A DNA stretch of 64,000 nucleotides from contig CM070874.1 in the NCBI GenBank assembly GCA_036365515.1, positions 243,170,430 to 243,234,429 of the forward strand, written 5' to 3'. Below are positions 1-55,234 of this stretch, one piece after another. This DNA comes from Torymus aiolomorphi. Lineage: Eukaryota; Arthropoda; Insecta; Hymenoptera; Torymidae. The notes below the pieces were generated by a model. That model was not told the origin of the DNA, searched no databases, and saw nothing but the letters and a program-made list of their open reading frames with translations. A program made the position numbers and the translations under genes. The number at the start of each line of letters is the position of its first letter. Within the stretch, counting starts at the first letter, position 1.

Positions 1-453
1 ACCGATCTTTCTCTCTTAATTGGTTTTTCCACTCTATCCAATAAATTAATTTCCTTTTCACACCTTCGTATTGTCCACGTTTTCTCTTCCCCCCCTTCAT
101 CATTCTTCGGTCGCTCTCTCTCTCTCTCGCACTCATACTATTTTCCAGCGTCGGTAACGCGGCGCTCGCGCAATAGATCCGCGACGTGCTGCCCTCGCTG
201 CAACGCGGTGGCTCCAGGCGTCACGACTCGCCTCGTTCCGGCAGCCAGCGCGTTGCTGCGCGGTTAGCACTTGAAATTTCAGTAACGAAACAGCGGACGT
301 TCACCTGGAATATCACTGCTTGCTATTGAAATTCTTAGAGGTCGTTGTATTTTCGCTATTTCCTCATTCAGTTGTATTAAGTTATATTCAATACATTTCG
401 TTTTTAATACATAAAATTTAGATTATTTTTGAACAAAAATACATAACGTAACA
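1..453 (-). repeat. 3' LTR of the errantivirus-like element (partial)
   Basis: Window base 1 aligns with base 11136 of the other LTR, and near-identity runs to the shared edge at 453 (element sense: TGTTACGTTATG). The LTR continues left of the window, so its full length is unknown. Differences from the right copy are scattered substitutions and a few short indels in a CT-rich tract, indicating a fairly recent but not brand-new insertion. It contains CT/GA-rich and GC-rich stretches in an otherwise AT-rich setting. Confidence 0.9.
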
Positions 454-466
454 ATATCCCCCTCTT
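454..466 (-). other. Polypurine tract of the errantivirus-like element
   Basis: In element sense AAGAGGGGGATAT directly precedes the TGTTACG start of the 3' LTR. A purine run at this exact place is the expected primer site for plus-strand DNA synthesis and fixes the LTR edge at 453. Confidence 0.75.
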
Positions 467-826
467 GTTTTGCTTGCCGCCCCGGCAAGTACTATAAATA
501 TACAATATAAATTATTGAAAATTTTGACGCGCTATAGGTTATTTGCATGTTGATAATGGAAGATTTTGTGAAGATATGTCCCTGCAATTTCAGTTGCTGT
601 AATCCTTCTTCTATCCGGAGTTTGTGATTGATAAAGGTCCAAAAAGTCCCGACGTTTGGGAAGTTTGTCGCTAACATGGAGAACAAGAAGGAGGAGCTCG
701 AGTAGCGAGAAAACTGCTAGTTCCTGTAGAGATTTTAGAGATTGTTCCAGGAGTCGATCAAGATAAACGTATATTGTTTATTACGCCTGTTCAGAGGTTG
801 TCTCCAGATCATTGGATAAATGTATT
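467..826 (-). other. 3' untranslated stretch between last accessory ORF and 3' LTR
   Basis: About 360 bp in which I see no convincing coding frame. A 64-codon open frame at 492-686 has no recognisable features. It may hold the 3' tail of the ORF5 transcript. Confidence 0.4.
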
Positions 827-1318
827 CTATAATCGATACCTTTTGGACGGCGGGCGGTAATCGGAGGAATGAGAATCATCTGTACCTAAATTCGACCTGG
901 ATCTTAATCTGTTTTGGCCTCGGAAAGCTAGTGATCTTTCCAAATATTGGTTGGCTATCCAACATCCTCCTGGTATGAAGATTAGCCTACTATATTGACA
1001 GTTCCGAGGATCTACAGCAGGGAACAACCAACCCTGGCCCCGAGGCACGATTATGCCATGGTTGTGAGATTGGGGCCATTCTGGGCACAGCATCATCAAG
1101 TTCTCGCTAGCTCTTTTGGCTATCTCCTCTGTTCCATAGGTAGCGAAAATGGAAAGGATCCCTGTTGTTTCTTGTATAAGTAAGGGTTCTTGCAAATTCC
1201 CATAAGTCCTGAGGTGATTTTCCATAACCTCTATTCCTTGATCCATGTAGCATAGGATGGCTACTTCTTTGGGGGTCGTTAGTGATACACACAGGATCTC
1301 AAGAGAGGTAGCGGCCAT
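827..1318 (-). CDS. Errantivirus accessory ORF5, 163 aa, unknown function
   Basis: This is the second extra ORF downstream of env. It starts at ATG 1318 in a good start context (GAAATGGCC), four bases after a splice-acceptor-like TTCTGTTATAG. I recognise no domain. The N-terminal half (about residues 1-75) looks globular and helical with hydrophobic and acidic residues. The middle contains GWLFP and RLIFIPGG stretches. The C-terminus is basic and serine-rich (RLRSRSN around residue 137, ending in SKRYRL), which could bind nucleic acid or act as a nuclear signal. No signal peptide or membrane segment is visible. The frame is intact, unlike the nearby integrase frame. It could be a regulatory or structural accessory protein, or a fast-evolving relict; function unknown. 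Confidence 0.6.
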   Translation of the reverse strand: MAATSLEILCVSLTTPKEVAILCYMDQGIEVMENHLRTYGNLQEPLLIQETTGILSIFATYGTEEIAKRASENLMMLCPEWPQSHNHGIIVPRGQGWLFPAVDPRNCQYSRLIFIPGGCWIANQYLERSLAFRGQNRLRSRSNLGTDDSHSSDYRPPSKRYRL

Positions 1319-1320
1319 TT

Positions 1321-1337
1321 CCTATAACAGAATTAAA
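1321..1337 (-). promoter_or_regulatory. Putative 3' splice site for ORF5 mRNA
   Basis: Element-sense TTTAATTCTGTTATAG ends with AG at 1323-1322, followed by GAA and the ORF5 ATG. The pyrimidine tract is moderate. Splicing here would remove an upstream ATG that lies just before the acceptor. The position mirrors those upstream of env and ORF4. Confidence 0.5.
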
Positions 1338-1473
1338 CATGGTTAAGGCAACTGCGTAGTTAAGCATATTCAGGTTTTTTTTTTTTTTTTTTTTTGCGGG
1401 AAAATGGAATGTACATTAGGGAAAAGTCGTCCAGCAGAAGAGATGGTGTTAGTAGTTATTTACATGTGGTTAA

Positions 1474-2229
1474 TTAATGTAGTCCTAAGAGGTCGTCCGT
1501 TTGAGAGGTCCCGGCAGATTTTATAGCACGTTGGCGCTCGTAGGTCCTTTCATGTAAGGTGTAATTCCTGCGGTCGATTTCTAAACCACAGGTAGGATGC
1601 GTTATCTTCATGACGTACACTGTACGGGCGTATTGGCGTTGTGCCGGTATGGCATGATAGCGCACGTCGCTTTGCTGAAGCGCTCGCCGAGCGGAGTCTT
1701 CCTGGTGAGATTTAACGAATCCATGAGATAGCCGACCCTTGCGATCGAGGATGGTATTGCAGTATTCCATTATACCAAATTTGGCGAAATGATTGAAAAA
1801 TAATTCTTCCTGTTCCTGTTTAATCGTGGTCGGGTCTTTATCTCCTTCGATCCTTGACCAAGGTATTTGGCAAAAGTGACGAGTTTTCTCCGTCAATTCT
1901 GAGGGCTCCGGCGATCGATGACGCTTCCGGTTGACAACGTGGACTTGCGACATTAGCCGCGGTGAAGGGCTGTTGGACACGAGTTCGCTGGTCGGTTTGA
2001 TGTCTAATGAGTCCTCTAACAACCACAGATCCTTATATTGTTCGGCTACCTCCACATCTTGTTTATTTTTGAAAATGATTTTGGCTGTTTGAGTGGTGAG
2101 GCTTTCGGCTGTTATTTGTACCATAATGATAGGTCCGGCCTGCTTAAAGCAGGTGATAAGTCCATCAAGTCTGAGGTCCTTATTAAAGGTCACATTGAAG
2201 TCCGAGGGATTCGAGGTCAAGGAGGCCAT
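1474..2229 (-). CDS. Errantivirus accessory ORF4, 251 aa, tandem RRM-like RNA-binding protein
   Basis: Two segments read like RNA-recognition motifs. Residues 10-76 follow a strand-helix-strand-strand-helix-strand pattern (FNVTF; LDGLITCFKQAG; PIIMVQI; TAKIIFKN; DVEVAEQY). Residues 138-200 resemble a second one: EELFFNHFAKFG, then NTILDRKG, an RNP1-like GFVKS near 170-174, and EDSARRALQQ. A serine/proline linker between them carries a basic NRKRHRSPEP patch near 100-109. The start is ATG 2229, seven bases after a strong splice-acceptor-like sequence. No membrane segment is present. By family knowledge RRMs bind single-stranded RNA, so a role in viral RNA export, splicing control or packaging is plausible, but this is inference. 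RRM proteins are not a standard errantivirus gene, and capture from a host is one explanation. The frame is intact. Confidence 0.65.
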   Translation of the reverse strand: MASLTSNPSDFNVTFNKDLRLDGLITCFKQAGPIIMVQITAESLTTQTAKIIFKNKQDVEVAEQYKDLWLLEDSLDIKPTSELVSNSPSPRLMSQVHVVNRKRHRSPEPSELTEKTRHFCQIPWSRIEGDKDPTTIKQEQEELFFNHFAKFGIMEYCNTILDRKGRLSHGFVKSHQEDSARRALQQSDVRYHAIPAQRQYARTVYVMKITHPTCGLEIDRRNYTLHERTYERQRAIKSAGTSQTDDLLGLH

Positions 2230-2235
2230 GTCCGA

Positions 2236-2253
2236 GCTGAAAGGGAAAGATGG
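2236..2253 (-). promoter_or_regulatory. Putative 3' splice site for ORF4 mRNA
   Basis: Element-sense ATCTTTCCCTTTCAG has AG at 2238-2237 after an almost pure pyrimidine tract, then CTCGGAC and the ORF4 ATG at 2229. This is a textbook acceptor placed exactly before the accessory start codon. Confidence 0.65.
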
Positions 2254-2393
2254 GGTTAGTCAATCTCAGCCAATTGGGGTGGAAGGGCGGGGTACATCAA
2301 GGCTGGAGTTGATACTGCCCTAGAAGGCATGGGTTGGAGAGCTACATAGGTGAGAGGGATTTGAGGAGCTATTGGATTGACTTCATTCCTTTC

Positions 2394-4301
2394 CTACAGT
2401 CGATTTCTGATTCCCCCTCTCTTGCGAATTAGAAGGAAAGCTACCGCCGCTGTGAGAGCTATTATACCTTGGGCAGCTATACCTCCATATACCAAATTAT
2501 GGGTAAAAGTAGTAGTTCTCGTGTGGGCCCCTATTTCTTTCATATGAGAGACGATGTTGTCCAAATTTTCTGTTTTCCTCGTGGCCAGTGGGTAAGGTAT
2601 ATTCTCTTCTGGGTCTTGGGATCTAGTGATGTTGATATGGTGCCACAACTCAGGGCGTATATCTGTTATATTTAATCTCATCTCTGGTTCGTAGATGTAT
2701 TGAGTTTTCGTTGTGCGGTCTTCGTTACCTGACAGTTCTACTGAGGTAGCTCTAGTAGAACAGCCATTGGCCATCCGTAGAATGCCCATACCTTTGAGGG
2801 TGGGGGTATAATAACTTTCTCCGGGGCATGTGATTCTGATGGTCTCTTCCTTAGGTAAAGAGTACAACCAACTTCCATCCATCTCCAGATATTTCCATTG
2901 GGGCGGTGACAAGGTAGAAATCATTATCTCACATGATCTTAGCGCATCCGGGTGTGGGTTTAAGAGTAGCTCAAGTTCGCACTCTTTCTGCCCGGTGACC
3001 AAAGATATCGGACCCTTGGCGGCACAAACACGCCCGTAGTGTGTTGGCATGCAGCTTCGCAGGTGTTCGTCATCCATTTTTAAATATGTCTGTAGGTCCC
3101 TTCTTATGGCTAAGTAAGGGTATGTTCGTGCTACATATGCTATCCCTAAACTTTGATTATGAGCTTGTTGGGGAATACCTATGGGGTGGAGTTTGTATAA
3201 CTCATAGCTCGCTCTTTCTGTCAGAGATATTGCTAGATAGATTAGAATTCTTTCTTGATGAAAGGTGGCGTCCAATGTCGCAATTCTAGCTATTTCCTCT
3301 GCACGGAGGTGGTGTAATGGCATTGGTAAAGTTCGATCCTCTCCCATCTGCTGGATATCCAAAGCAATCCGATGGAGCATATCGTGGTGCATTAATCGGG
3401 GATGCAGTTTCCGATCAGTTATGGTATTGAGAATATCGCCGAGCTGGCGGTTGCAATATATCAGGTGGTCTAACTTTGCTTCAATCTGACGGGGGAACGC
3501 GGTAAAATCCCAAGTGATGTGATTGTCATTTGCTCCTTGGGCGAGAGAATTCATGTTGGTATTAAGAGCTATTTCCATCTTCTTGATTAAGGAGCGATGT
3601 GACGCCGTAATATTATAAAGCTCTTCAAGGCCGGCAGAAAGGAGGTGAGTTTTCTCCGTCGAAAGTTTTACAAGATTCTTTTGGTCCTGAAACAATTGGT
3701 CGATATTTTTATTAATCAGGTCAGCATCGTCAGTGGTGATTAGACCAAAAAGACTTTTGCTTATACTGCCGACAATGCCAAGGGGAGCCATTCTCTTTGC
3801 GCGGATGTCCTTTATGGGGGAGGGGATCTCCATTTCCCTGGCATCTATATGAGCCGCTACTCTTCGGATGTCATCGTGTACGTGTTGGAGCGTCTTTAGC
3901 TTGATTTCGATGAGTTCTTGGTTGAGAGCAGCCTGACAATGCTTGGCGTCGAAATGAGCAATGCACTGCTTCAGTTGTTCATCGTAACTACGAGTGGGAC
4001 CATGTTCCTTAAGAAAGGTTTGCAAATCCAGGTGGATTATCACTTTCCAGCTCCCTTTCCGGATCCTGATCGAGGGCAATTTGTCATAGTAAATACCAGG
4101 ATTGGAGGTGATCGGAGACAGCTCGTAGTGGACTCCTGTCGCGGTGACCATCCATAGAGTCGACAGAAGGAACGTGAAACAACGAAGTATAGCACACATT
4201 CTGAAAGAAAACAGGCATAGGTCAGATAACCTGTCGATGGTTATTAGTTTAGATACTCTGGATATAAGGAAGGATAAAAGGGGAGGAATTCCAAAGGACA
4301 T
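2394..4301 (-). CDS. env: Envelope glycoprotein, baculovirus F-like, up to 635 aa
   Basis: The frame is uninterrupted. It overlaps the integrase stop as TAATG at 4301, but the better start is Met35 (4199), which begins a signal peptide (CAILRCFTFLLSTLW) and lies one base after a splice-acceptor-like TTTTCTTTCAG. A furin-type RAKR site at residues 167-170 is followed by a glycine-rich hydrophobic fusion-peptide-like stretch (PLGIVGSISKSLFG), the arrangement of insect errantivirus Env and baculovirus F proteins. A long ectodomain with many cysteines follows. A C-terminal membrane segment (about 603-625) ends in a short basic tail (RKRGG). The length fits full-length insect Env. It probably mediates membrane fusion; whether it is expressed is unknown. 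Confidence 0.88.
   Translation of the reverse strand: MSFGIPPLLSFLISRVSKLITIDRLSDLCLFSFRMCAILRCFTFLLSTLWMVTATGVHYELSPITSNPGIYYDKLPSIRIRKGSWKVIIHLDLQTFLKEHGPTRSYDEQLKQCIAHFDAKHCQAALNQELIEIKLKTLQHVHDDIRRVAAHIDAREMEIPSPIKDIRAKRMAPLGIVGSISKSLFGLITTDDADLINKNIDQLFQDQKNLVKLSTEKTHLLSAGLEELYNITASHRSLIKKMEIALNTNMNSLAQGANDNHITWDFTAFPRQIEAKLDHLIYCNRQLGDILNTITDRKLHPRLMHHDMLHRIALDIQQMGEDRTLPMPLHHLRAEEIARIATLDATFHQERILIYLAISLTERASYELYKLHPIGIPQQAHNQSLGIAYVARTYPYLAIRRDLQTYLKMDDEHLRSCMPTHYGRVCAAKGPISLVTGQKECELELLLNPHPDALRSCEIMISTLSPPQWKYLEMDGSWLYSLPKEETIRITCPGESYYTPTLKGMGILRMANGCSTRATSVELSGNEDRTTKTQYIYEPEMRLNITDIRPELWHHINITRSQDPEENIPYPLATRKTENLDNIVSHMKEIGAHTRTTTFTHNLVYGGIAAQGIIALTAAVAFLLIRKRGGIRNRL
4200..4216 (-). 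promoter_or_regulatory. Putative 3' splice site for env mRNA
   Basis: Element-sense CCTGTTTTCTTTCAG has AG at 4202-4201, immediately before AATGTG, in which the ATG at 4199 opens the signal peptide. Errantivirus env is known to be made from a spliced subgenomic RNA, so this site is expected. It also gives a model for the acceptors before ORF4 and ORF5. Confidence 0.7.
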
Positions 4302-6226
4302 TAATTTGACTCAGAACTGTCCAAGGGCGGGACGACCTTTAATTTGTCAATATGTTTTCGGATAGTTTTTCCATTGGGAAGTTCTAGGAGCACATTATTT
4401 CTACCCAATATCTCCTTGATTTTTAGAGGCTTGTTATAATAACTATCAAATTTGGACACCCTGGGCTCTCGTCTAACCCATGCGTAATCACCTACCGACC
4501 CTTTTAGGGGTTTGATCTTTCGGTCGTAGCGCTCTTTGGGTTTTTCCTTAGCCCTAATCTGATTCTCCCCAGCTATAATTTGGAGTTCACCCAATCGGGT
4601 AATCAGATCTTGCAGGTACAGGTTATAAGTTCGCAGTTGTTCCGCCGCGGGGATGCGGGTGGGGAACCTTGCCAATCGACCGTACACAAGTTCGAATAGT
4701 ATAAAGTTGGTACTGGCATGAACACTGGTGTTATACGTGAATGTAGCAAATGGCGTGAGATTGTCCCAATCGTCGTACTTCTCCGAATAGGCTCTCACAA
4801 AATCCATCAACGGGGCGTGGCTTCGCTCTAGAGAACCGTTAGTTTGAGGGTGATAACCAGACGTGGTAAGGTGGTGGATTCGGAACAGGCGCATCAATCC
4901 TTCGACGATTTCGGACAGAAAACTAGTTCCTCTGTCAGATAAGATGGCTCTTGGGGCTCCAAATTGGCAAATCAGGTATTTGGCAAGCGTGTCGGCGATG
5001 GTTGAAGCTTTGAGGTTGGGAATAGGTATTCCAATAAGGTACTTTGTTAAGTTACACTGCATTGTCAGTAGATGACAATTTCCTCTGGGGGTTGTACGCA
5101 GTTTTCCTACGGTGTCGATGGAAACCTTGTCGAAGGTCTCAATTGGAGTATCTGTGATAATCATGGGTTCCCGTGTTTTGATCCTTTCTATCTTTTTCTC
5201 CTGGCAACTTGGACATCGGCGGATGTAATCCAAGATGTCATTCCTCATGCCAGGCCAATAGTATCTCTCCCGGATTTTCTGGTAAGTTTGGTTGACTCCC
5301 TTATGCCCACCTATAGGACTATCATGGAGAGTTTCGATAATCTGTTTTCTCTCTTCTGGGAAGGGCAATTCTACCTTACCGTAACATACCGTGACAGTAG
5401 TCTGAGTTTCACCAAAAATGCTTATTAATAATTCGGTGAACAACCCAGGATCCATATCATCTATCAGATCTCCTCGCCGAGATACATGGAAACTTGTTAG
5501 GTTTTTCCTCAGAAGTATGGTTTTAAAATCTTTGAGAGTCCGTTTCAATTGTGCGCAATCCAGAGGGTCATAATGCCTTTCCTTAACAATTAAGGAAAAC
5601 ACATTATGGTTTTTGAAAGGTGTGGTCAATATCTGCCCCAGCTTAGGTTTTTTGCCCTTCAGGGTTTTAGGCTCGATTGCTCCAATTTCGCTGAGGAGGC
5701 GTCCCACGGAAGTAACTATCTCGCAATCTCTAGAGATGAAATGGACAATATTATCTCATTTATACGTGAGGCATTGTCGAGACGTGCTTACGTTATTCTT
5801 TAGTCTTGGCGGGGTTACTGGGTGGTTTCCTATTTCAGAGCTTGAGCTGTCGGATGGCACTTGCATAAGTGAGCTTTGGGCATCACTTACATATTGGTTC
5901 AGAGGAGCCTGTTGTTGGTACATGGATAGAAACAGTCCCAGAGTATCGGTCGGAGGTTGATTAAAATCCAGCCTAATGGGAGTAGAGCTATCCCCTTTCT
6001 CATTTTCTTCCTGGATCTCTTCTAAGTTGGGAAAGTGTACAGACCGACGGTTCGGTGCTTCCGTCTTGGGAGTACTTTTAGCCGTAGGGGTACTGGGTTC
6101 GATAGACGATAGTCGAGAGGGTGGTGGAACCCCATCTCTCTCCATATTTTTGTCGGATTCGCTAGTCGCATCTTCACGACTGCATTCATTGAGTCTTTTG
6201 TACCATTTCCTGAATCCTTTCCACCA
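4301..6226 (-). pseudogene. pol: Pol C-terminal part: linker plus integrase, broken by frameshift and TGA
   Basis: The frame is open from 6226, overlapping the end of the upstream pol frame by about 40 bp in a different phase (a +1-type shift). It carries a proline/serine-rich linker, is stopped by TGA at 5756-5758, and continues in the same frame to TAA at 4301-4303. After the stop come a Gypsy-type N-terminal domain, an HHCC zinc-binding module (LHDSPIGGHKG ... RRCPSCQ) and a DDE core (SIDTVG; LSDRGTSF; NGSLERSH). The C-terminal domain includes VGDYAWVRR. The integrase core looks intact from about 5707, but the stop would cut it from the rest of Pol unless read through or reinitiated. Both breaks lie in or next to the disordered linker, so decay is the simplest reading. 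Confidence 0.85.
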
Positions 6227-9200
6227 TCACTGAGTCATCCATGGTGACTGGGTCTATGGGATCCATCTCGTCTAGGATGGATTGCATGTTTCCATCCACC
6301 TTGTCTCCATCAGAGAAGTGTGCCGGGAGAATTATTATCTCTTCATCGTCTTCTTCTAGCTCAGCCCTGTCTTGGTGCAATTGCAAGCTCTCTTTAAATT
6401 TTCGCGCTGATTGTAGCACTTCTTCTTTTGACAGAGTAGTGTGTCTTGTTTCATTACTTGATTCGCTATCTTGAGCAACGGTAACCTCGATTTTCTTGTC
6501 TCTGGCGGATATTTCCGAATCATGATCGGTCTCTTCCTTCTCATAATTGGATGCATTCTCTGCGTCATCGGTGTCCGTTTCTTCGACTCTCAGACAGCTC
6601 CGTCGGGGATCATAAATGGGAGATCGGCCATCGGTATCAGAGTCTTCGGATTCGATTCCCGTAGACGAGAGAAGTGCACCAGGAGAGCGGGTGAAAGAAG
6701 GGTCTAATGATATATCTACCCGTGGTTTGGCCGGGTTGTGAACCGTCTTCGAGGGTGGAATCTCGTTGGGCGCACAGGGTTCACGTCCGTTCCCGTTAGA
6801 TGTTCCCGCTCTGGCTTTAAGAGCCTCCGTATTTGACTTTCCAGATTCGGATGGTTTAGATTTATCCTTAGAGCCAACACTATCTTCAGCTTTGAGGGCT
6901 AATTTTCCACGCGTCCGTTGCGCCACAATACTGTGATTTAACGTCGGGGCTACCTTGCGAGTTTTGGATCCAACAGGTCTCCCACGCCCTTTTTGAGCAG
7001 CCGTTCCAGTTGTGAGAGGTTGCGGGGCTGATGGAAGTCGTGGTCGAGACGACCGTCCTCCTGATGATCTCACCGGGGGTGTGAGTAATCGTTGAGGGGC
7101 TTGGTTGCTCCCTCGAGCTGTTGGTGTTTTACGCTCCTCGAGGATCATAACTCGTATCCTAGAGAGACTTTGGTTAATGTCCTCTTCAGATGGTTCTTCC
7201 ACAGGGTTCCGAGAGAGGGCGTCCGCATTACAGTTTAATTTTCCCGGTTTGTACTTAAAAGTGTACTCATAACCAGTGAATTTAAACATCCATCTCATAA
7301 GGCGCTGGCCGGAATCTTTCCGACTATGCATCCAATTTAATGGCTCGTGATCTGCAACCAAAGCAAATTTTCGGCATAGAAGGTACGGGCGGAAATGGTT
7401 GAAGGCGTACAACACAGCGAGACATTCTTTCTCAGTCGTGCTGTAATTGCGTTCAGCCTTGTTAAGTGTCCGAGAGTGGTATGCTACTGGATACTTTGAC
7501 CCGTCCTGGACTTGACTCAACACGGCACCAATAGCTTCGTCGGAGGCATCGGTAGTTAACATAAATGGTTTGGCAAAATCGGGAAATAATAGAATTGGTT
7601 CATTGCACAAGCGTTCCTTGAGGGCATTGAAAGCTATTCCTTGTGGTTCTTCCCAATTAAATTCCTGATCCTTTTTCAGGAGATCATATAAAGGTTTCGC
7701 GATTTTGGCATAGTCCTTAATAAATCTCCTATAATAACCCGTGAGACCTAAAAATTCTCTGATATTTCGCACGCCCTTCGGCTGAGGAAATTGCCTCACC
7801 GCCTTTACCTTTTCCGGATCTGGTTCAACTCCACGTTCACTGATTATATGGCCTAGGAACGCAACCTCTTTACGCAAGAAATGAACCTTTTCAGGTTGCA
7901 GGACGAGATAAGTATAGGCGAGACGGGAAAAGAATTGTCTCACTCTTTTATCATGGTCTGCGAGGGTTCGGGCATGGATGATAACATCGTCCATGTATAC
8001 AAGGGTTTCCTTGCAATCAAGCCCCCTCTTAATCTGGTTCATGAGACGCTGGAATGTTGCAGGGGCATTTCTAAGTTCCATAAGCATCCTTTTGTATTCG
8101 TAGTGACCTCCCGGAGTCGAGAACGCTGTCATCCATTGGTCTTCGGGAGCCATTTTGATCTGGTGAAAACCAGAGGCAAGATCGAAGACGGAAAAGTACA
8201 TTGCCCCACCGAGTTGGTCGAGAATGTCTGTAATGTTCGGGAGGGGGTATGCGTCCCCTATGGTTTGTTGGTTTAATTCACGAAAGTCGACTACCATTCT
8301 CCAACGTAGATTTCCCTGAGCATCTGGTTTCTTTGGAACGATCCAAATTGGCGAATTACTCGGACTGTTCGATGGTACAATAATTCCTTCCATAAGCTTT
8401 TTCTGGATATCTTTTTCGATAAAATCCTTATGTACTAAAGGATGTCGGTATTGCTTTGTATTTACAGATAAATTGTTTTCCAAGGGAATACGATGTTCTA
8501 CTGCATTAGTGCAGGGTAGCGGATCCCCAGGCAGTAGAAAGATATGTGGAAAGTCCTCAAGAAGTTTTTCCACGCTTCCCTTTTCTTCATCATTGAGATG
8601 TTTCATCTGAATGATGTCGCGCAGTATTCGCACGCGAGCATCTCGGTCTACTACGGGATTATCTGCTTTTACGGGAATGTCCTCTTCGGCTCCGGGCTCA
8701 AAGTCCAATGCAGCATATTCAAAAGAAATGAGTTCCTTGGCATCAACTTCGATGGAAACGTCTTCATTTCGGGTATTAATGGCCATCACATGACAAAATC
8801 CGTTCTCCTGGACCTTGACGATACCATCGCCGAGGTATACATCCTCATAACCGACATCTATCCGAGGCAAGTATCCTTCAGATAGATCTTTATTTACAGC
8901 TTCTAATTGAATGATTTTCCGAGACCGACGAGGGATCGTATACATAATTTTAGCAGGAGATGGAGGAGTGTATGTCGATTCTTGAATTGTGTTCGGCGGA
9001 GCATCTTCCCCGAGTAGGATGTTTCTCGTGAGGATACTCAACGTTTCCTCCTCTACATTTTCCTTCTCCACTATATGATGTCCCTCACTGGATCCGATAA
9101 TCTTGATATCAGCCTCTTCGCCTATACTCTGGCCCGTATGGGGGTTGATAAAAGGGATAGGGTGCATGACATCTCCGCTTATCATCAACGTATTATAGTG

Positions 9201-9545
9201 ATACGATATAACTGCCTGTTCTTGCTTGAGGTAATCACGCCCCAGGATCCCGTCTTGTTCAATAGGGAAGTCGTTCTGTGCTACTATGAACGTGATAGGT
9301 CTGTCTCGTAAGTTAACGATAGTTGTACCATAGGTGTCGACGGACTGATCATTGATACCGATGAGTGGAGTCGCTCGATCAGTATCTACTAAAATATCCA
9401 GGCGCAAGGCACCAATTTTGATAACGTTAACTGCGGCTCCGTTGTCGATCATAAAATGGAGCCACGGTCGACGACCAATAATACTGTTACGAGAGAGGTT
9501 AGAAATACCTCTCCGTAACAATAATAAAATTCGGTCGTCGCCCAA
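6186..9545 (-). CDS. pol: Pol N-terminal part: protease, reverse transcriptase, RNase H, long linker (about 1119 aa)
   Basis: The protease lies near residues 26-110, with catalytic Asp34 in an unusual D-N-G-A motif (normally DTG/DSG) and the later GILGRDYL. RT spans about 330-640 with YMDD near 517-520 (DNA about 7986-7997). RNase H follows (TTDASDEAIGAVLSQ; EKECLAVLYAF; VADHEPLNW; NADALSRNP). From about residue 800 to the end a roughly 300-residue low-complexity linker is serine-, basic- then acid-rich, with an AT-hook-like KGRGRPVGSKTRK near 848-862. The frame is open upstream only to a TGA at 9555-9557, and no ATG precedes the protease, so expression presumably needed gag fusion or splicing. 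The catalytic motifs are intact, but the frame is separated from integrase by the breaks described there. Confidence 0.9.
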   Translation of the reverse strand: MGDDRILLLLRRGISNLSRNSIIGRRPWLHFMIDNGAAVNVIKIGALRLDILVDTDRATPLIGINDQSVDTYGTTIVNLRDRPITFIVAQNDFPIEQDGILGRDYLKQEQAVISYHYNTLMISGDVMHPIPFINPHTGQSIGEEADIKIIGSSEGHHIVEKENVEEETLSILTRNILLGEDAPPNTIQESTYTPPSPAKIMYTIPRRSRKIIQLEAVNKDLSEGYLPRIDVGYEDVYLGDGIVKVQENGFCHVMAINTRNEDVSIEVDAKELISFEYAALDFEPGAEEDIPVKADNPVVDRDARVRILRDIIQMKHLNDEEKGSVEKLLEDFPHIFLLPGDPLPCTNAVEHRIPLENNLSVNTKQYRHPLVHKDFIEKDIQKKLMEGIIVPSNSPSNSPIWIVPKKPDAQGNLRWRMVVDFRELNQQTIGDAYPLPNITDILDQLGGAMYFSVFDLASGFHQIKMAPEDQWMTAFSTPGGHYEYKRMLMELRNAPATFQRLMNQIKRGLDCKETLVYMDDVIIHARTLADHDKRVRQFFSRLAYTYLVLQPEKVHFLRKEVAFLGHIISERGVEPDPEKVKAVRQFPQPKGVRNIREFLGLTGYYRRFIKDYAKIAKPLYDLLKKDQEFNWEEPQGIAFNALKERLCNEPILLFPDFAKPFMLTTDASDEAIGAVLSQVQDGSKYPVAYHSRTLNKAERNYSTTEKECLAVLYAFNHFRPYLLCRKFALVADHEPLNWMHSRKDSGQRLMRWMFKFTGYEYTFKYKPGKLNCNADALSRNPVEEPSEEDINQSLSRIRVMILEERKTPTARGSNQAPQRLLTPPVRSSGGRSSRPRLPSAPQPLTTGTAAQKGRGRPVGSKTRKVAPTLNHSIVAQRTRGKLALKAEDSVGSKDKSKPSESGKSNTEALKARAGTSNGNGREPCAPNEIPPSKTVHNPAKPRVDISLDPSFTRSPGALLSSTGIESEDSDTDGRSPIYDPRRSCLRVEETDTDDAENASNYEKEETDHDSEISARDKKIEVTVAQDSESSNETRHTTLSKEEVLQSARKFKESLQLHQDRAELEEDDEEIIILPAHFSDGDKVDGNMQSILDEMDPIDPVTMDDSVMVERIQEMVQKTQ

Positions 9546-9559
9546 GGATGTCTCTCATT

Positions 9560-9591
9560 CCTTACCTCTATTTCTCACCTCAATGTCACCA
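9560..9591 (-). promoter_or_regulatory. Leader with primer-binding-site-like sequence and splice-donor-like sites
   Basis: Element-sense TGGTGACATTGAGGTGAG (9591-9574) begins like the usual TGG of a primer-binding site and matches 13 of 18 positions of what I recall for a tRNA-Trp site. Just after it are two donor-like sites, GAG|GTGAGA (GT at 9578-9577) and GAG|GTAAGG (GT at 9565-9564), which could pair with the acceptors before env, ORF4 and ORF5. No clear LTR end (CA) precedes the TGG, so the primer-site call is weak. Confidence 0.35.
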
Positions 9592-11135
9592 AAATAAAGA
9601 TAGAGTCTAATGAAAATTATACTCCGTTCAAATTCTCATACTAAACGACATGTATCTAACGTTAATATTAATATGGGAAAATAGATAAGGGTTTAGACAT
9701 CAAAAAAATGTGGTTATCATAATAATTGGAAGTACATATATATATATATATAAATATGAAATTCTGGAAGTTTGAGGATTATATTCAGCACCCGCTTGGA
9801 AGTTTGAGGGGTTATGGGAAGTTTGAGGAGCCTCCTCAAACTTCCAATCTATATATTCAGCATCCGAGCGGAAGTTTGAGGGGTTTTCTAGAGTCTATTT
9901 GTCTAGAGTCGGTAACCTGAGGGTTATTATTTCTTTAGCCACTCTGACCGACCGGGGTTGAGCTCCTCAAACTTACTAGCCTAATATATATATATATATA
10001 TATGTATATGTGTGTGCGTATGTGTCAAGTAGTATTAGGTGAAAATTACTATAAAGATTCTAAATAAATGCTCTAGCTGAAATAATTTCTCTTTGTAGAA
10101 AATAATGTTAGATTTAGTTGGGAAGACTATAAACTATTAGGGTAACGGGCTCGATCCTTGGGTTTTCTAGAAGCCTAAAGTTAGATGATACAAAAATTGA
10201 AGATATAAGAACACTAATAGATCCGAATTAACGATTATATAGGGTAACTCAGTCTGCATATCATTAAGGAAAACCCCTTAAAAGCGTGTTTACGATTTGT
10301 ATCACAATAGATTAAGGAAATAGTACTCAAAACAATAAGGATATTTCTACTAGCGACAGTTTTATAAGGTTTAAATTTGTTTATTAAGACAATCACTAGA
10401 TTATTAATAATACTAAATAAATAAATAAATAATTGATAATTCTTACGTTAAAAATATAAAATGTTAATTGTTGAACGAAACGTGTATAAGAAAAACCTTT
10501 GACTTTAATGATATCCCGTAATGCGTTTTCCCAAGAGAGTTTAGTTTTCAGATAAAGATTTCGTGGCTCGGATTAATTACAATATAAATTTCCACAATTA
10601 TTTATACTTATTTGGAATGCTTTATGAAGGCTCTTTGATTAAAATAACCCTTTTCCCAAATATTGAATTTAATCGATTCCCAACGCAGATAATTATTACT
10701 TCCGGGGATAATAAGAATGAATAAAATTTAATCAAAAATAATGTATAGTTATCTACATATAGTTATATCTATATATTTCCGAATAATCTGGTTGTATGTG
10801 TATACGTGTTTAATTAAAATAGTAACATAAAGTCTTACCTGAATAATATTGGAGGGAAGGATTTAGGAGAAATCAAATTCCTGAATAATGTATTAATTTC
10901 CTTTTATTTCCTCAGTTATACACTTGCTTCAATCTCTCTTTTTCGTCTCGACTTGGCTCAATATCTAATTCTTTATTATTATTATTATTATAAAACAATA
11001 AAATTCGATCTTTCTTTCTTTCGATATCGTTTACGCGGGTTTACTGAATACGCAAATAAGTACAATAATTATCTCAATTGAACTCGTGCTATATAAATAT
11101 AATACAAGACTTTACACTCTTCGTCGCACACGTTA
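9592..11135 (-). other. Non-coding leader or interior of a long 5' LTR, with GGAAGTTTGAGG motif cluster
   Basis: About 1.5 kb of AT-rich sequence without a coding frame, where gag would normally sit. Because the left LTR is cut by the window edge, I cannot tell whether this is leader or the rest of a roughly 2-kb LTR. A cluster of GGAAGTTTGAGG direct copies (about 9766, 9800, 9820, 9870) and inverted copies (about 9833, 9963) lies at 9760-9980, with (TA)n runs on either side. A small (ATT)n run is at 10976-10990. Confidence 0.5.
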
Positions 11136-11586
11136 TACCGATCTTTCTCTCTTAATTGGTTTTTCCACTCTACCCAATAAATTAATTTCCTTTTCACACC
11201 TTCGTATTGTCCACGTTTTCTCTTCCCCCCTACATCATTCTTCGGTCACTCTCTCTCTCTCTCACTCATACTATTTTTCAGCGTCGGTAACGCGGCGCTC
11301 GCGCAATAGATCCGCGATGTGCTGCCCTCGCTGCAACGCGGTGACTCCAGGCGTCGCGACTCGCCCCGTTCCGGCAGCCAGCGCGTTGCTGCGTGGTCAG
11401 CACTTGAAATTTGAGTAACGAAACAGCGGACGTTCACCTGGAATATCACTGCTTGCTATTGAAATTCGTAGAGGCCGTTGCATTTTCGCTATTTCCTCAT
11501 TCAGTTGTATTAAGTTATATTCAATACATTTCGTTTTTAACACATAAAATTTAGATTATTTTTGAAAAAAAATACATAACGTAACA
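11136..11586 (-). repeat. 5' LTR of the errantivirus-like element (portion shared with the left LTR)
   Basis: It is nearly identical to 1-453 and ends at 11586 with GTAACA (element-sense start TGTTACG). Beyond this edge the two flanks differ completely: polypurine tract on the left copy, retroelement protease remnant on the right copy. This pins the LTR outer edge. The inner edge is undefined because the matching LTR is truncated by the window. Short ORFs inside it are not genes. Confidence 0.88.
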
Positions 11587-12685
11587 TCACCTAATGTAAA
11601 TAATTTATTTTCAAAGCCTAATTTAGCATTATGAGTTAAAAATAATTGCGACCCTAAATTCCAGTAAATGGAATTTGAAAATTATTAGGGACTACTATAA
11701 ATTCTACATTCCTACCTAACATTCTTTTATTGACTATACCTAAAGATAAAACTGGATTTTCAGAAATACCCATGATTAGTGTTGGTCTTGTTGTATCTAT
11801 AGTTTTTATGTCGTTGATAAAACCTACACGAAGGATGTTTATTTCTGATCCCGAATCCAACATGAAACCAAATAATACATCATTTTTACAATCTTTGAAA
11901 GAAACATGCGGAATTAATTTTGACGCAATGGGGAGTTTAATGCTATTAACTCGTCCGCGGTAAATCCCTGCACTTGGGCCGTACGGGTTGAGCGCTGAGA
12001 AATAGGCTGAGTCCCTTAAGGTGCTCTCGGGCCTGAAGGGCTCTGCTCGTTTCCCAACCTCTTTGCCTCATTATTAGCCTTTCTTTGGCATTGGTCAATT
12101 GAATGACCTTTAATTTTGCAATAAGCACAGGTAATATTATTTCTACAAGAAACCGCCGTATGGCCGGTATTTAAACACAGCTGGCTTGTTTCTATGTTAA
12201 CAACTGGTTTATTTACTTTATTAGTTTCGCGCAGGTAACATCTATCAGCAGTATTCCCTTCGTTTAAACAAAGCTGGCAGGTAATTGTATTTTGTATTGC
12301 GGTGGCTTGCTCACCTGACCAACAAAAACGAGTGGCATGTCCTTGTCTCCCACAAGTTTGACAAATAGCAACATTATAACATTGGGCTGCTAGATGTCCA
12401 GGTTTCTTACAAATTTGGCATATTATACCCTTTTTGCATTGGGCAGATTGGTGCCCTAGTTTTTTGCAAATTTTGCAGTTATCCTCTGGTTTTGGGGCTC
12501 TTACAGCAACAAGCTGACATTTATCAGTGCCGTGTCCCGATTGATTGCAAATTCTGCAAATTAAAACACGATTCGCTGATAATAGGCTACAATTGTTAGC
12601 TTCATGTCCCGTTTGTTTGCATAATTGGCAAAGGAATACCTTTTTTTTTTATCAGTTTTCCCTAAACTAGATTGATCCCTTCTTA
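11587..12685 (-). pseudogene. Decayed gag/protease of a second LTR retroelement, with eight zinc knuckles
   Basis: The minus-strand translation of 12630-12088 is an open run of eight CCHC-type knuckles. Six are intact, for example CRICNQSGHGTDKC and CKICKKLGHQSAQC. The sixth has Asn for His and the seventh has Ser for the first Cys. Downstream a stop and a frameshift precede a retropepsin segment (11863-11654) with LDSGSEINIL. A TAG then falls just before GRNYF, and another frameshift follows. The errantivirus LTR interrupts it at 11587. The knuckles mark a nucleocapsid-like region that binds nucleic acid, followed by the protease as in Gypsy-type elements. Eight knuckles is far more than the usual one or two. 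Confidence 0.75.
12683..12685. repeat. Left TTA target-site duplication of Tc5-like transposon
   Basis: TTA precedes the terminal CAAGGAAGG. The matching TTA is at 18078-18080. Collapsing the element plus one TTA restores a continuous minus-strand gag frame across the site, which independently supports the boundaries. Confidence 0.75.
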
Positions 12686-21518: not shown

Positions 21519-22035
21519 AAATTAACATAAATCGTCGGGCGTTTCCTTCAGTTGATAAAATAATGTTGTCTGCTTCGGCTGAAAATAATGCAGACGGGGG
21601 GGATTTGGGAAATAAAAATTGAGCGCGTTTAAGTAGCGGTTAGGGTCTGGAAAGGATTGTCAGCCCAGTGGCGCAAATGGCAGCGTAGCTGCCCAGTAAG
21701 TAGAAGGTTGTCGGTTCGACCCTGGCCTGGGCCGTTATTTTTTCGTTCTCATTTTTTATCTTATACGTTTACCTTCCCTTTCCACATCCTTTAAAAATTC
21801 TTGACTGCACTTTAATTATTATAAGATTATTGTGCATAATTCTTTGACTGCTATTTATTGTGTCAAATAGCTTCTAAAAATTTAAATATGTATTTACACA
21901 CATATATATACAAAAAAAAAGTGATTGATAAGTTAGTTACCTTCCTTATCTATTATCTTTCGCCCTGAATAGCCGTTAGATTCACTTATTAAATTAACAT
22001 AAATCGTCGGGCGTTTCCTTCAGTTGATAAAATAA
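21519..22035. repeat. 45-bp direct repeats flanking an insertion that contains a tRNA-like sequence
   Basis: The same 45-bp sequence (AAATTAACATAAATCGTCGG…) occurs at 21519-21563 and 21991-22035, bracketing 427 bp inserted into the TNP2-like gene. Such a repeat fits an unusually long target duplication or an unequal-exchange event. Confidence 0.8.
21659..21735 (+). repeat. tRNA-derived SINE-like core
   Basis: GCCCAGTGGCGCAAATGGC resembles a polymerase III A box, and GTTCGACCC 50 bp on resembles a B box. The ends GCCCAG and CTGGGC can pair like an acceptor stem. I cannot form a convincing anticodon stem, so this is more likely a tRNA-derived SINE head than a working tRNA gene. Confidence 0.5.
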
Positions 22036-28882: not shown

Positions 28883-29660
28883 TTAATTTAAAGGTCTCAA
28901 TAAAGGAAAATAAGACGTATTTAAAAATTTAACGTCTTCTTTCTTATTTATGTTATTACTGTTGCACTTAATGTGGATCATTTCTGACAATATACGTTTT
29001 TTGTAATTAGCTTCCTGATCTAGAATTTTGGTATTGTCCCAGTCAAAATCATGGAAAAATTTATTCCTATGTTGTGGAACTACTGATTCTATGTTATTTT
29101 TTTGATGTTCGTTAATTCTGATTTTTATTGTACGTTTAGTTTCTCCTACATATGACGCAGGAGACGATTTACAAAAGAACTTATAAACTACGTTGGTCTT
29201 ATCCCACTTTTTTGTAGGGTCTTTACCTAATTTTATTACAGAACTTAGACTCTTATTAACAAGAGGCAAAACACGGAAGTTATAAGGTTTGAGAATGGTT
29301 ACAATTTTTTCAAAAATGTCATTGAACGGTAATGAAATATGGGATACAAATCCGTTTTTTACGATATTGTCTTTTTGGTTGTTCTCATATTTAATTTTGT
29401 AAAATCTTTTGTATGCATATTGTTTGATGAATCTCCGAGGGTAATTATTATTTTTGAGTAATGTAGTAACAATATTTAGATTTTTCCTATGAAATTTTTT
29501 ATTTGATAATAAAATTGCTCTGTCAACAAGGTTGTACACAATATTGATCTTCTGTTGTGGTGATGATAGGAATGATAATTAATAAGTCTGCCGGAAGAAG
29601 TGGGTTTATTATACCAATCTGTAATAATCGTATTATTATGGTGGATTAAAAGAATATCTA
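28883..29660 (-). pseudogene. PLE C-terminal part: RT thumb, linker and GIY-YIG endonuclease
   Basis: The frame 29539-28883 (218 aa) ends with a GIY-YIG nuclease: NVVYKFFCK, then SYVGETKRTIKIRINEH, with downstream histidine-rich and NKFFHDFDWD segments. The linker has the PLE-type basic region (YPRRFIKQYAYKRFYK). The part at 29766-29540 (DILLIHHNNT, TDWYNKPT) belongs to the same protein but in another phase, so there is a frameshift near 29540. The nuclease makes the target cut for retrotransposition. Confidence 0.8.
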
Positions 29661-29735: not shown

Positions 29736-30600
29736 TTACGGTATTGATATATTTTTGTCGATACACATAATCGTGTCATCAACGTAGCGGAAATAAAAAA
29801 GTGGAAGAATATCATGGTTATCTTTCAAAATTTTTAGACAGTCAGTTTCCAAATCGTCCATCACAATATCTGCAAATAATGGCGATATCGGGGAACCCAT
29901 AGGTGTACCATCAATTTGTCTATAAAATTTGTTATTGAAAGAAAAAAAGGTATTCAAAAATAGAAATTTTATACATGTAATAATTTCGTTGAATGGGATT
30001 TTACATCTATTATGTATGGAATCAAATCTTCGATCTATACTGTCTAATACTAGTTGTAGTGGAATGTTTGTAAATAGAGAAATAACGTCTAAAGAGAGTA
30101 ATACATAGTCATCTGGTATGATAACTGAATTTAATTTTTGTTTCAAATGAAAACTGTTGTCGATATGCGACTGGGATTTTTATGGACGATTTGATTTCAT
30201 TGTAAATAATTTTAGCTAAAAAGTGGCTCGGACTATTGACTAATGAGATTATGGGACGGAATGGTATATCTTTTTTATGTATTTTTGGAAGACGGTAACA
30301 TTTTGCCAGTGTAGTATTTGAACAAGAGAGAGAGTTATTTGAAACTTTGTGCGCAAATAGATATTATTATTTAAGTTCTTAAGAATCGTCGACGTGTCAG
30401 ATTGTAATTTTTTTAGGGGATTCTTTTTAATATTTTCGTAAACAGTTGTGTCAGATAGTAAAAAGTGCATTTTTGAGTTGTATTCAGTCTTGCTTAAGCA
30501 GACGGTGACATTTCCCCTGTCAGAAGTTGTAAACCATATATCTGGATTATTTTTAATAAACTTTTTTGTCAATTTTCTAGATATTCTTTTAATCCACCAT
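29736..30600 (-). pseudogene. PLE reverse transcriptase, frameshifted
   Basis: The frame 30146-29736 has the core RT motifs SLDVISLFTNIP, QIDGTPMGSPISPLFADI and FRYVDDT. The frame from about 30600 to 30249 carries the N-terminal part (IKNNPDIWFTTSDRGNVTVCL; LLSDTTVYENIKK). Between them (30248-30147) the coding sense (LPKIHKKDIPFRPIIS-like) is in other phases, so there is at least one frameshift. The YVDD catalytic pair is intact, but the gene is not continuous. Confidence 0.82.
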
Positions 30601-31446
30601 AATAATACGATTATTACAGATTGGTATAATAAACCCACTTCTTCCGGCAGACTTATTAATTATCATTCCTATCATCCACCACAACAGAAGATCAATATTG
30701 TGTACAACCTTGTTGACAGAGCAATTTTATTATCAAATAAAAAATTTCATAGGAAAAATCTAAATATTGTTACTACATTACTCAAAAATAATAATTACCC
30801 TCGGAGATTCATCAAACAATATGCATACAAAAGATTTTACAAAATTAAATATGAGAACAACCAAAAAGACAATATTGTAAAAAACGAATTTGTATCCCAT
30901 ATTTCATTACCGTTCAATGACATTTTTGAAAAAATTGTAACCATTCTCAAACCTTATAACTTCCGTGTTTTGCCTCTTGTTAATAATAGTCTAAGTTCTG
31001 TAATAAAATTAGGTAAAGACCCTACAAAAAAGTGGGATAAGACCAACGTAGTTTATAAGTTCTTTTGTAAATCGTGTCCTGCGTCATATGTAGGAGAAAC
31101 TAAACGTACAATAAAAATCAGAATTAACGAACATCAAAAAAATAACAACATAGAATCAGTAGTTCCACAACATAGGAATAAATTTCTCCACGATTTTGAC
31201 TGGGACAATACCAAAATTCTAGATCAGGAAGCTAATTACAAAAAACGTATATTGTCAGAAATGATCCACATCAAGTGCAACAGTAATAACATAAATAAGA
31301 AAGAAGACGTTAAATTTTTAAATACGTCTTATATTCCTTTATTGAGACTTTTAAATTAAATTTGTTGTCGTTTGATTTTTCTTTCTATATGTATCTGTGT
31401 TTTGTTTGTAAACACAGACACCAAACCTTTACTGTGTATATTATAA
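30570..31446 (+). mobile_element. Penelope-like element, right copy, part 1 (linker and GIY-YIG)
   Basis: This plus-strand copy repeats the left copy in inverted orientation with few differences. A 303-aa open frame (30448-31359) fuses unrelated upstream sequence to the PLE C-terminus from about DILLIHHNNT. The nuclease core (SYVGETKRTIKIRINEH) is intact and, unlike the left copy, the thumb-linker-nuclease stretch is in one frame. RT is missing (5' truncation). The copy is interrupted at 31446 within TATAAA and resumes at 38194. Confidence 0.85.
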
Positions 31447-54500: not shown

Positions 54501-55234
54501 AACTGTATGATACTCCGATGGAGACAAATTTAAAACTTGAACAGTCTAATAAAGCAGATGAAACAATAAAATATCGAAATTTAATAGGTGAATTATTATA
54601 TAATAGCACAGGTACAAGACCTGACATAACTTACAGCGTGAACTACTTAAGCAGATTTCAGAGTTGCTACGATTCAACACATTTTAAATACGCGATACGA
54701 ATATTCAAATATTTATACAAAACGAAACATTTAAAATTGACTTATTGTTGTAATTCAAATAAGGATAAACTTGATTGTATGGTCGATTCAGATTTTGCAG
54801 GAGATAACATTGACAGAAAGTCAACCACCGGATTTGTTATTAGAATGTTTGGAAATATAATCTATTGGAGAACACAGAAACAAAAAACTGTAACAAAAAA
54901 TTCAAAATTTGCCGAATACATTGCATTGTCTGAAGCGACAACAGAAATATTATTTGTAATTAATCTCTTAAAAGACACCTTTAATACGACATTTGAAAAT
55001 CCTGTTAAAATATACGAGGATAACTCAGGCGCAGTAGCAATTGGAAAATTCGGTAATCTAACAAAAAATTCTAAGCACATTGAAGTGCAACGTCATTATG
55101 TAAATGAGAATTACGAAAACGGTGTTATCGATATTGTAAAGATAGAAACTGAAAATAATCTAGCGGACATATTCACAAAGAGTCTATGTAAGGAAAAATT
55201 TATTAAAAATAGAAACGCGCTAAAGTTAATATAA
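51536..55234 (+). pseudogene. pol: Copia polyprotein: nucleocapsid knuckle, protease, integrase, RT, RNase H
   Basis: One frame with three internal stops: TGA 53129-53131, TAA 53450-53452 and TGA 53822-53824. The two TGA stops lie where tryptophan would be natural. In order: a CCHC knuckle (CYNCGRGGHLKKDC, about 51722), a Gly/Arg/Ser/Gln linker, protease (LDSGCTDHV, about 52157), integrase zinc module (WHRALGHVN … CANCIQSKM) and catalytic core (NTDLNGPH; CDNGKEYL; NGVAESFNR). RT follows with QMDVETAFLNG and FVDDLLIC (about 54287), then RNase H (VDSDFAGD; EDNSGAVA; NLADIFTK). The segment from 53975 to 55234 is open for 419 codons. Confidence 0.9.

Follow-up and report, generated by a model that had tools for sequence, protein, structure and literature searches.

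Regulatory accessory genes expressed from multiple spliced RNAs are a mark of complex retroviruses, exemplified by Rev and Tat of human immunodeficiency virus, Rex of human T-lymphotropic virus and Tas of foamy viruses. Among invertebrate elements, the only experimentally shown case that we found in the literature searched is Cer1 of Caenorhabditis elegans, in which an extra protein, CERV, is made from a spliced RNA and is needed to export unspliced RNA (PMC10309623). The errantiviruses of Drosophila (gypsy, ZAM and Idefix) have long terminal repeats (LTRs) that end in AGT/AnT (PMC5408687), and env of insect errantiviruses is expressed from a spliced subgenomic RNA (PMC12992720). LTR retrotransposons of bdelloid rotifers have captured an additional gene, ORF3, encoding an esterase/lipase or a DEDDy exonuclease, and carry a paramyxovirus-type env (PMC5408684). 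Here we describe an LTR element in a 64,000-nucleotide stretch of the Torymus aiolomorphi genome (hereafter the window), which carries two open reading frames (ORFs) behind env, ORF4 and ORF5, each with an acceptor-like site just ahead of its start codon. Comparison with other copies indicates that these extra genes are real, old and under purifying selection.

We consider it rather likely that the window copy, itself defective, belongs to a diverse Ty3/gypsy-type (Metaviridae) lineage that carries env and acts like a complex retrovirus, with ORF4 controlling the RNA of the element. The phenomenon is larger than the original prediction supposed, comprising five families in the host genome, which we label A to E (labels coined in the present analysis). 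As in other Metaviridae, there is an LTR pair, and RVT_1, RNase H, H2C2 and rve domains follow each other in order. The element shares with Drosophila errantiviruses the gene order gag-pol-env and a baculovirus F-type envelope, and env, which errantiviruses express from a spliced RNA, here lies behind an acceptor-like site. However, its LTRs are about 2 kb long and have TG...CA ends (TGTTACG...CGTAACA in the window) instead of AGT/AnT, it has a primer site TGGTAGCAGAGC, and there are genes behind env, plus one ahead of gag in three families. Given the LTR ends, the errantivirus label is not supported, although it fits the envelope. In L041-L044, L057 and L058 the primer site comes after the terminal CGTAACA, and the site itself, which we take to be that of initiator tRNA-Met, is present with 0-2 mismatches in 8 of 9 5′ pieces.

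The likeness to Cer1 is that both are LTR retrotransposons with an extra protein, whose origin from a spliced RNA is a prediction here; the difference is that ORF4 is related to RNA-recognition motif (RRM) proteins, specifically RBM45, and that its role is predicted from sequence. As in complex retroviruses, several accessory genes would be expressed from alternatively spliced RNAs and would include an RNA-binding regulator, while the LTRs differ and the Pfam and PDB searches, the only ones bearing on this point, brought up no sequence relation. The bdelloid elements likewise have an additional captured gene, but not RRM proteins behind an F-type env. In the open-licence literature (titles and abstract openings), we found neither a description of this layout nor an LTR element with env that was said to contain an RRM or RBM45 gene. 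The copy lies on the minus strand and runs from 11586 past position 1, with the following features:

9485..11586, minus strand: 5′ LTR, TGTTACG...CGTAACA, ~2.1 kb, counting in a 226-nucleotide (nt) insert at 9758-9983
9564..9579, minus strand: two candidate splice donors, GAG/GTGAGA (last exon base 9579) and GAG/GTAAGG (last exon base 9566)
9460..9476, minus strand: internal-deletion junction, ~1.7 kb lost relative to other copies
6186..9545, minus strand: pol part 1, with a protease-like start (by eye), reverse transcriptase, RNase H and a long linker
5756..6145, minus strand: pol linker ORF of 129 amino acids (aa) in another frame, with matches in related copies
4301..5707, minus strand: pol part 2, integrase, with an H2C2 zinc-binding domain and rve core
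4201..4211, minus strand: candidate env splice acceptor TTTTCTTTCAG; spliced env would begin at the ATG at 4199
2394..4301, minus strand: env, baculovirus F-type envelope protein (Pfam Baculo_F, E = 8.1e-39, 134.1 bits)
2237..2248, minus strand: candidate ORF4 splice acceptor TTTCCCTTTCAG, ending at 2237, 7 nt before the ATG
1474..2229, minus strand: ORF4, 251 aa, predicted tandem-RRM protein related to RBM45, with an HxxCG...LHxxTCxRQ-type C-terminal tail
1322..1332, minus strand: candidate ORF5 splice acceptor TTCTGTTATAG, weak, ending at 1322, 3 nt before the ATG
827..1318, minus strand: ORF5 of family A, 163 aa, its first ~80 residues probably resembling the N terminus of family E ORF5
1..453, minus strand: first part of the 3′ LTR, which begins at 453 and runs out past the window start

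The tandem arrangement of env, ORF4 and ORF5 had been correctly described from the window alone, as had the pyrimidine-AG sequences just before each start (ending at 4201, 2237 and 1322). The donors GTGAGA and GTAAGG are also present, not in the leader, where they had been placed, but inside the 5′ LTR (11586-9485) near its 3′ end: the last exon bases 9579 and 9566 lie 94 and 81 nt ahead of the LTR end, as measured in L041 and L042. By eye, env has a cleavage-like RAKR site and a C-terminal hydrophobic segment, and the ATG at 4199 opens a signal-peptide-like sequence.

Both extra genes, with their acceptor-like sites, recur in other copies, as the original prediction required. That the host genome is an insect's agrees with its 145 matches to the odorant-receptor family 7tm_6 of insects, compared with none in 14 control genomes. 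The 1.08-Gb host genome contains at least 152 matches to ORF4, a lower bound since 150 of 439 candidates were scored, with some copies yielding two matches. Identities among the matches listed range from 38 to 100%, with clusters near 95, 72, 57 and 42%. The window-type ORF5 has 75 full or partial matches (43-100%), and the ORF4 profile picks up nine proteins from public assemblies; no relatives were found in scans of IMG/VR or in a scan of GTDB contigs. We fetched 20 further copies spread over the identity range (19 listed as stop-free): all contain ORF4, 19 have env upstream of it (the exception is L035) and 16 have integrase upstream (exceptions L022, L024, L026 and L040). Counting from a Met, ORF4 is uninterrupted over at least 215 aa at 34 of 40 loci, a sample biased to intact loci. 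The families are as follows:

Family A: window copy and L001-L021; ORF5 of 163 aa
Family B: L022-L026; coiled-coil ORF5 of 130-134 aa (77 aa from the first Met in L026)
Family C: L027-L030 and L040; no homologous ORF5 seen, with an unrelated 76-aa ORF in L040
Family D: L031, L032, L036 and L038; ORF5 of up to 337 aa
Family E: L033-L035, L037 and L039; ORF5 of up to 474 aa

The ORF5s of families D and E are fragmented in several copies. In trees of ORF4 and of integrase pieces, which overlap only in part, A and B are sisters and E is coherent, consistent with, although not proof of, inheritance of ORF4 together with pol. A point against our interpretation is that the trees disagree on the partner of A plus B, which is E for integrase (support 0.989) and C for ORF4 (0.468). 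In the integrase tree L027 does not group with the remaining C copies; the ORF4 tree does not include it.

Selection was estimated by the Nei-Gojobori method for 18 ORF4 pairs. For all 10 pairs with a synonymous divergence (dS) of 0.15-3.05, the ratio of nonsynonymous to synonymous divergence (dN/dS, omega) was between 0.07 and 0.39: 0.36 and 0.34 for A against L021; 0.26 and 0.24 in B; 0.25, 0.07 and 0.09 in D; and 0.39, 0.12 and 0.11 in E, dS being near saturation in the pairs with the lowest values. Approximate Fisher P values for the 4 pairs tested are 4e-7, 2e-8, 4e-31 and 1e-36; in 4 other pairs dS is saturated, so that omega cannot be estimated. ORF5 of family A gives omega values of 0.49-0.53 versus L055 (approximate P 0.008, one pair) and 0.22-0.24 versus L056 (P 1e-11). 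Purifying selection is less apparent among close relatives, where omega for ORF4 is 0.31, 0.61, 0.66 and 1.39 in four pairs with dS <0.13 and 0.60 when pooled within family A (13 copies), and where omega for ORF5 within family A is 0.95 (23 rows, of which five are repeat readings of a locus already included); these values speak against our interpretation. The expectation of a ratio below 1 thus held for pairs that are not too close, with values near 1 among some of the closest copies. Higher omega values of close copies are as expected of decaying insertions, and the pattern fits selection on replicating lineages combined with decay of insertions.

Sequence comparisons identify ORF4 as a tandem-RRM protein with a second RRM related to that of host RBM45, a kinship that the original prediction missed, together with the variable ORF5 slot, a coiled-coil gene ahead of gag and the loss of gag. 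RRM_1 scores above the Pfam gathering score (20.7 bits) in 6 of the 8 ORF4 proteins scanned (window, 26.8; L028, 43.4; L031, 31.5; L034, 25.2; L022, 31.8; L035, 29.7) and below it in L036 (16.7) and L040 (13.7); L028 has two RRM_1 stretches. In a low-confidence AlphaFold prediction, ORF4 would show the beta-alpha-beta-beta-alpha pattern twice. A Foldseek match of the model to RRM1-2 of Pub1 (E = 1.2e-5) adds weak support, given TM-scores of only 0.23 and 0.32. Set against the structural evidence is the poor quality of the models (mean pLDDT 48.9 and 35.3), which rest on alignments of four sequences each.

Among RRM proteins, the best-match test pointed to RBM45 in both directions. With a 16-sequence ORF4 profile, RBM45 is the top match in the PDB (E = 2.3e-10), the next molecule being HuD (7.7e-6). 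Conversely, human RBM45 RRM2 has four matches at E ≤ 0.001 in the whole host genome: a host RBM45-like exon (1.5e-15), one other (1.3e-4) and, near the limit, two ORF4 copies (8.5e-4, and 9.2e-4 for that of L023). The second RRM of ORF4 is 26-36% identical to the host exon over 78-84 aa in 15 of 16 copies (34% over 41 aa in L040), with R-x-FC, FG--EY and Y-x-A as common stretches. ORF4 differs from RBM45 in its size (~228-252 aa) and in its Cys/His tail (HxxCG...LHxxTCxRQ), which may be zinc-finger-like; single H or C positions are changed in L034, L036, L040 and the window copy, the last having Y in place of the final C.

In the mechanism that we propose, full-length RNA would give rise to Gag, Pol and, in families C, D and E, a coiled-coil protein encoded ahead of gag, while the donor near the 3′ end of the LTR would be joined alternatively to the acceptors ahead of env, ORF4 and ORF5; the use of these junctions is inferred. 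ORF4 would bind RNA of the element and steer its splicing or export, allowing unspliced genomic RNA to reach the cytoplasm in the way that CERV does for Cer1, and ORF5 would supply extra modules for this function. Such post-transcriptional control of element RNA is the most speculative part of this scheme; it is our best guess for the role of ORF4 because of the domain content and the Cer1 precedent.

The window copy itself is defective. Compared to L041 and L042, it has lost ~1.7 kb that includes the primer-binding site, the leader, gag and the beginning of the pol frame, with a 17-nt overlap at the junction, and pol is broken over three frames (9545-6186, 6145-5756 and 5707-4301). The same junction is present at a second locus (C1:127511119-127511238, 99%), so the element either moved after the deletion arose or was duplicated along with it; trans-mobilisation of the gag-less form is possible. 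We rejected the idea that the element naturally lacks gag: among 40 scored matches (182 candidates), the junction is spanned by the window and this second locus, and the remaining 38 match one side of it only. Likewise rejected was ORF4 as a relocated gag, since L041-L044 carry a gag-type ORF upstream of the protease region and the 527-aa Gag of L043 has no RRM match. In these related 5′ pieces the gag-type ORF is intact in L043 (527 aa stop to stop), interrupted by a stop codon in L041 and frameshifted in L042 and L044.

Of the alternatives to a regulatory role, the one that fares best, while still unlikely in our view, is that ORF4 and ORF5 are structural or packaging proteins, the RRM proteins being made from subgenomic RNA as a separate nucleocapsid that coats genomic RNA in particles. 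This idea stems from a Gag without a recognisable RNA-binding domain (at E 0.1, Pfam gave nothing for the 527-aa stop-to-stop Gag of family B), and the retention of ORF4 in every family sampled agrees with it. However, a structural protein made solely from a spliced minor RNA would be unusual, and Gag contains, by eye, an R/G/N-rich region that could itself bind RNA.

ORF5 is, as judged by sequence similarity, a variable slot, holding a short protein in A, a coiled-coil protein in B, an ORF4-related protein in D and E and nothing recognised in C. The relationship of the D/E proteins to ORF4 extends to the tail (hhalign probability 97.3, E = 2e-11), and RRM_1 is recognised twice in the ORF5 of L034 (E = 2e-8), while Pfam returned nothing for the ORF5s of L031 and L036. 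ORF5 of family A probably, although not certainly, resembles the N terminus of that of family E: over the first 79 aa hhalign gives a probability of 62.5 (E = 7e-5), and the score is reached by 0-1 of 500 shuffles in each of six comparisons. A first hhalign run with other alignments gave a probability of 4.9 for ORF5-A versus ORF5-D/E; versus ORF4 it was 0.6, and no similarity to the host RBM45 exon was found (175 of 500 shuffles were equally good). That ORF5 is unrecognised in C and unrelated in B means that it is not essential in every family, which is a point against our interpretation.

A coiled-coil ORF lies between the LTR end and gag in all six pieces from families C (L044, interrupted; L057, L058 and L059), D (L060) and E (L061), and in none of two A pieces and one B piece. 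The ORF5 of family B belongs to this coiled-coil family (full-length C versus B, E = 1e-8 and 1e-7, composition-corrected; 41.2 bits without correction versus at most 28.9 in 500 shuffles). An earlier comparison using part of an interrupted copy was not significant (E = 0.26); the composition-corrected E values and the shuffle test led us to reject the view that the B and C genes are unrelated. The same gene would thus occupy a pre-gag position in some families, and in another it would follow ORF4 and have an acceptor. It is possible, and we put it forward tentatively, that the lineage captured a host RBM45-type gene, which became a Rev/CERV-like regulator of the element, and that RRM and coiled-coil modules were then expanded and re-assorted in dedicated slots (one pre-gag, and a first and second behind env, both behind their own acceptors), giving rise to an independently complex retrovirus with up to six genes.

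Gene turnover at the ORF5 position, RNA-binding domains and a moderate omega for ORF5 (0.22-0.53) would also fit an arms race, in which ORF4 and ORF5 are counter-defence proteins that bind element RNA and blunt host silencing by PIWI-interacting or small interfering RNAs. We regard this as improbable, as no known silencing suppressor proved similar in the Pfam and PDB searches made and ORF4 is more conserved than is usual for such genes.

For the expression of the extra genes, the placement of ORF starts is a strong indication that each has its own spliced RNA; the best inference from the sequence is a minimum of three spliced subgenomic RNAs. We defined a strong acceptor as at least 12 pyrimidines in 14 followed by YAG, within 10 nt of an ATG. 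Over the 20 loci counted, such sites precede 26 of 2207 sense ATGs (including the sites at issue) versus 24 of 2530 antisense ATGs, with a background of 0.6% of all positions on both strands. An ORF4 acceptor lies 7-10 nt from the ATG in 16 of 17 copies of family A (L018 starts at a downstream Met), in family C (3 of 4 with YAG) and in family D (4 of 4). All 16 ORF5 starts examined, a set that leaves out L026 and L033, have a pyrimidine-rich AG within 6 nt, which is YAG in 15 and has at least 12/14 pyrimidines in 11, bearing in mind that copies inside one family are not independent for such counts. At the family level, chance is very unlikely because strong sites precede the ORF5s of B, D and E, mostly by 2-6 nt; the acceptors are convincing because they recur in diverged families, even before non-homologous ORF5s. 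Every family has one or more copies with TTTCAG ahead of env.

Donor scoring with a weight matrix covered families A, B, C and E; donors located 81-107 nt before the LTR end score 10.6 in A, 11.2 in C (three copies) and 11.6 in E, and 1.5% of 3590 background windows reach 10.5. Several sites weigh against splicing as the general rule. The window ORF5 acceptor is weak (10/14 pyrimidines, a level that 3.9% of positions pass) and would not stand alone; L029 of family C has GAG instead of YAG before ORF4; in family B the ORF4 acceptor is 29-31 nt upstream in 3 of 4 copies, with none within 40 nt in L023; and in family E it is 21-22 nt upstream, with a poor pyrimidine tract. At the env ATG there is no acceptor in L022, L024 and L026, and L033 has TTTCGG, while donors are weak in family B (5.9) and lower in the divergent C copy L059 (8.0). 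These weak or distant acceptors would be accommodated if the ORFs were translated downstream on longer RNAs, by reinitiation or from an internal ribosome entry site, but this is very improbable considering the strong acceptors right before ATGs in several families and the similarly placed donors in A, C and E. Finally, that the extra ORFs are fortuitous or passengers behind chance pyrimidine tracts, for which the weak window ORF5 acceptor and omega values of 0.60-1.39 in several close pairs and within family A might be cited, deserves next to no credence, being already contradicted by conservation (down to 38% identity, with the same gene position in 19 of 20 copies), by acceptors 2-6 nt ahead of non-homologous ORF5s and by omega <0.4 in 10 of 10 estimable pairs with dS ≥0.15.

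Under the regulatory reading that we prefer, an RNA-binding gene of identifiable host kinship, selected across deep families and apparently duplicated, would show how regulation is acquired, and the nuclear exit of unspliced retroelement RNA becomes testable in an insect. Non-homologous genes behind equivalent acceptors suggest, in addition, that an expression slot outlasts its occupant.

Several further observations concern the window copy and its surroundings. The two LTRs are 95.8% identical over the in-window part (453-column alignment); matches to the 3′ LTR reach ~1181 nt beyond the window start, where other sequence breaks in within a TA repeat. The 226-nt insert at 9758-9983 contains repeated CCTCAAACTTCC / GGAAGTTTGAGG, lies inside the TA repeat of the 5′ LTR and is not in L041 or L042. 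A possible hairpin at the LTR 3′ end (9520-9485, TGTTACGGAGAGG...CCTCTCTCGTAACA; by eye) repeats the LTR's own terminal sequence. At the start of the 9545-6186 ORF, as in L042, L044 and other copies, the protease active-site motif is D-N-G-A, the usual one being D-[ST]-G. The long linker after RNase H (6186-7300) has an AT-hook-like KGRGRPVGSK (by eye), and parts of it match in related copies. A search of 1-12000 against Rfam returned only two matches, both below the gathering score (E = 0.32 and 0.46), and ARAGORN found no transfer RNA in the element, its only one being at 21661-21735. Elsewhere in the window, two similar GIY-YIG-like ORFs at 28883-29539 (minus strand) and 30448-31359 (plus strand) are probably Penelope-like elements, and Copia-like gag-pol ORFs occupy 51536-55234 (both by eye).

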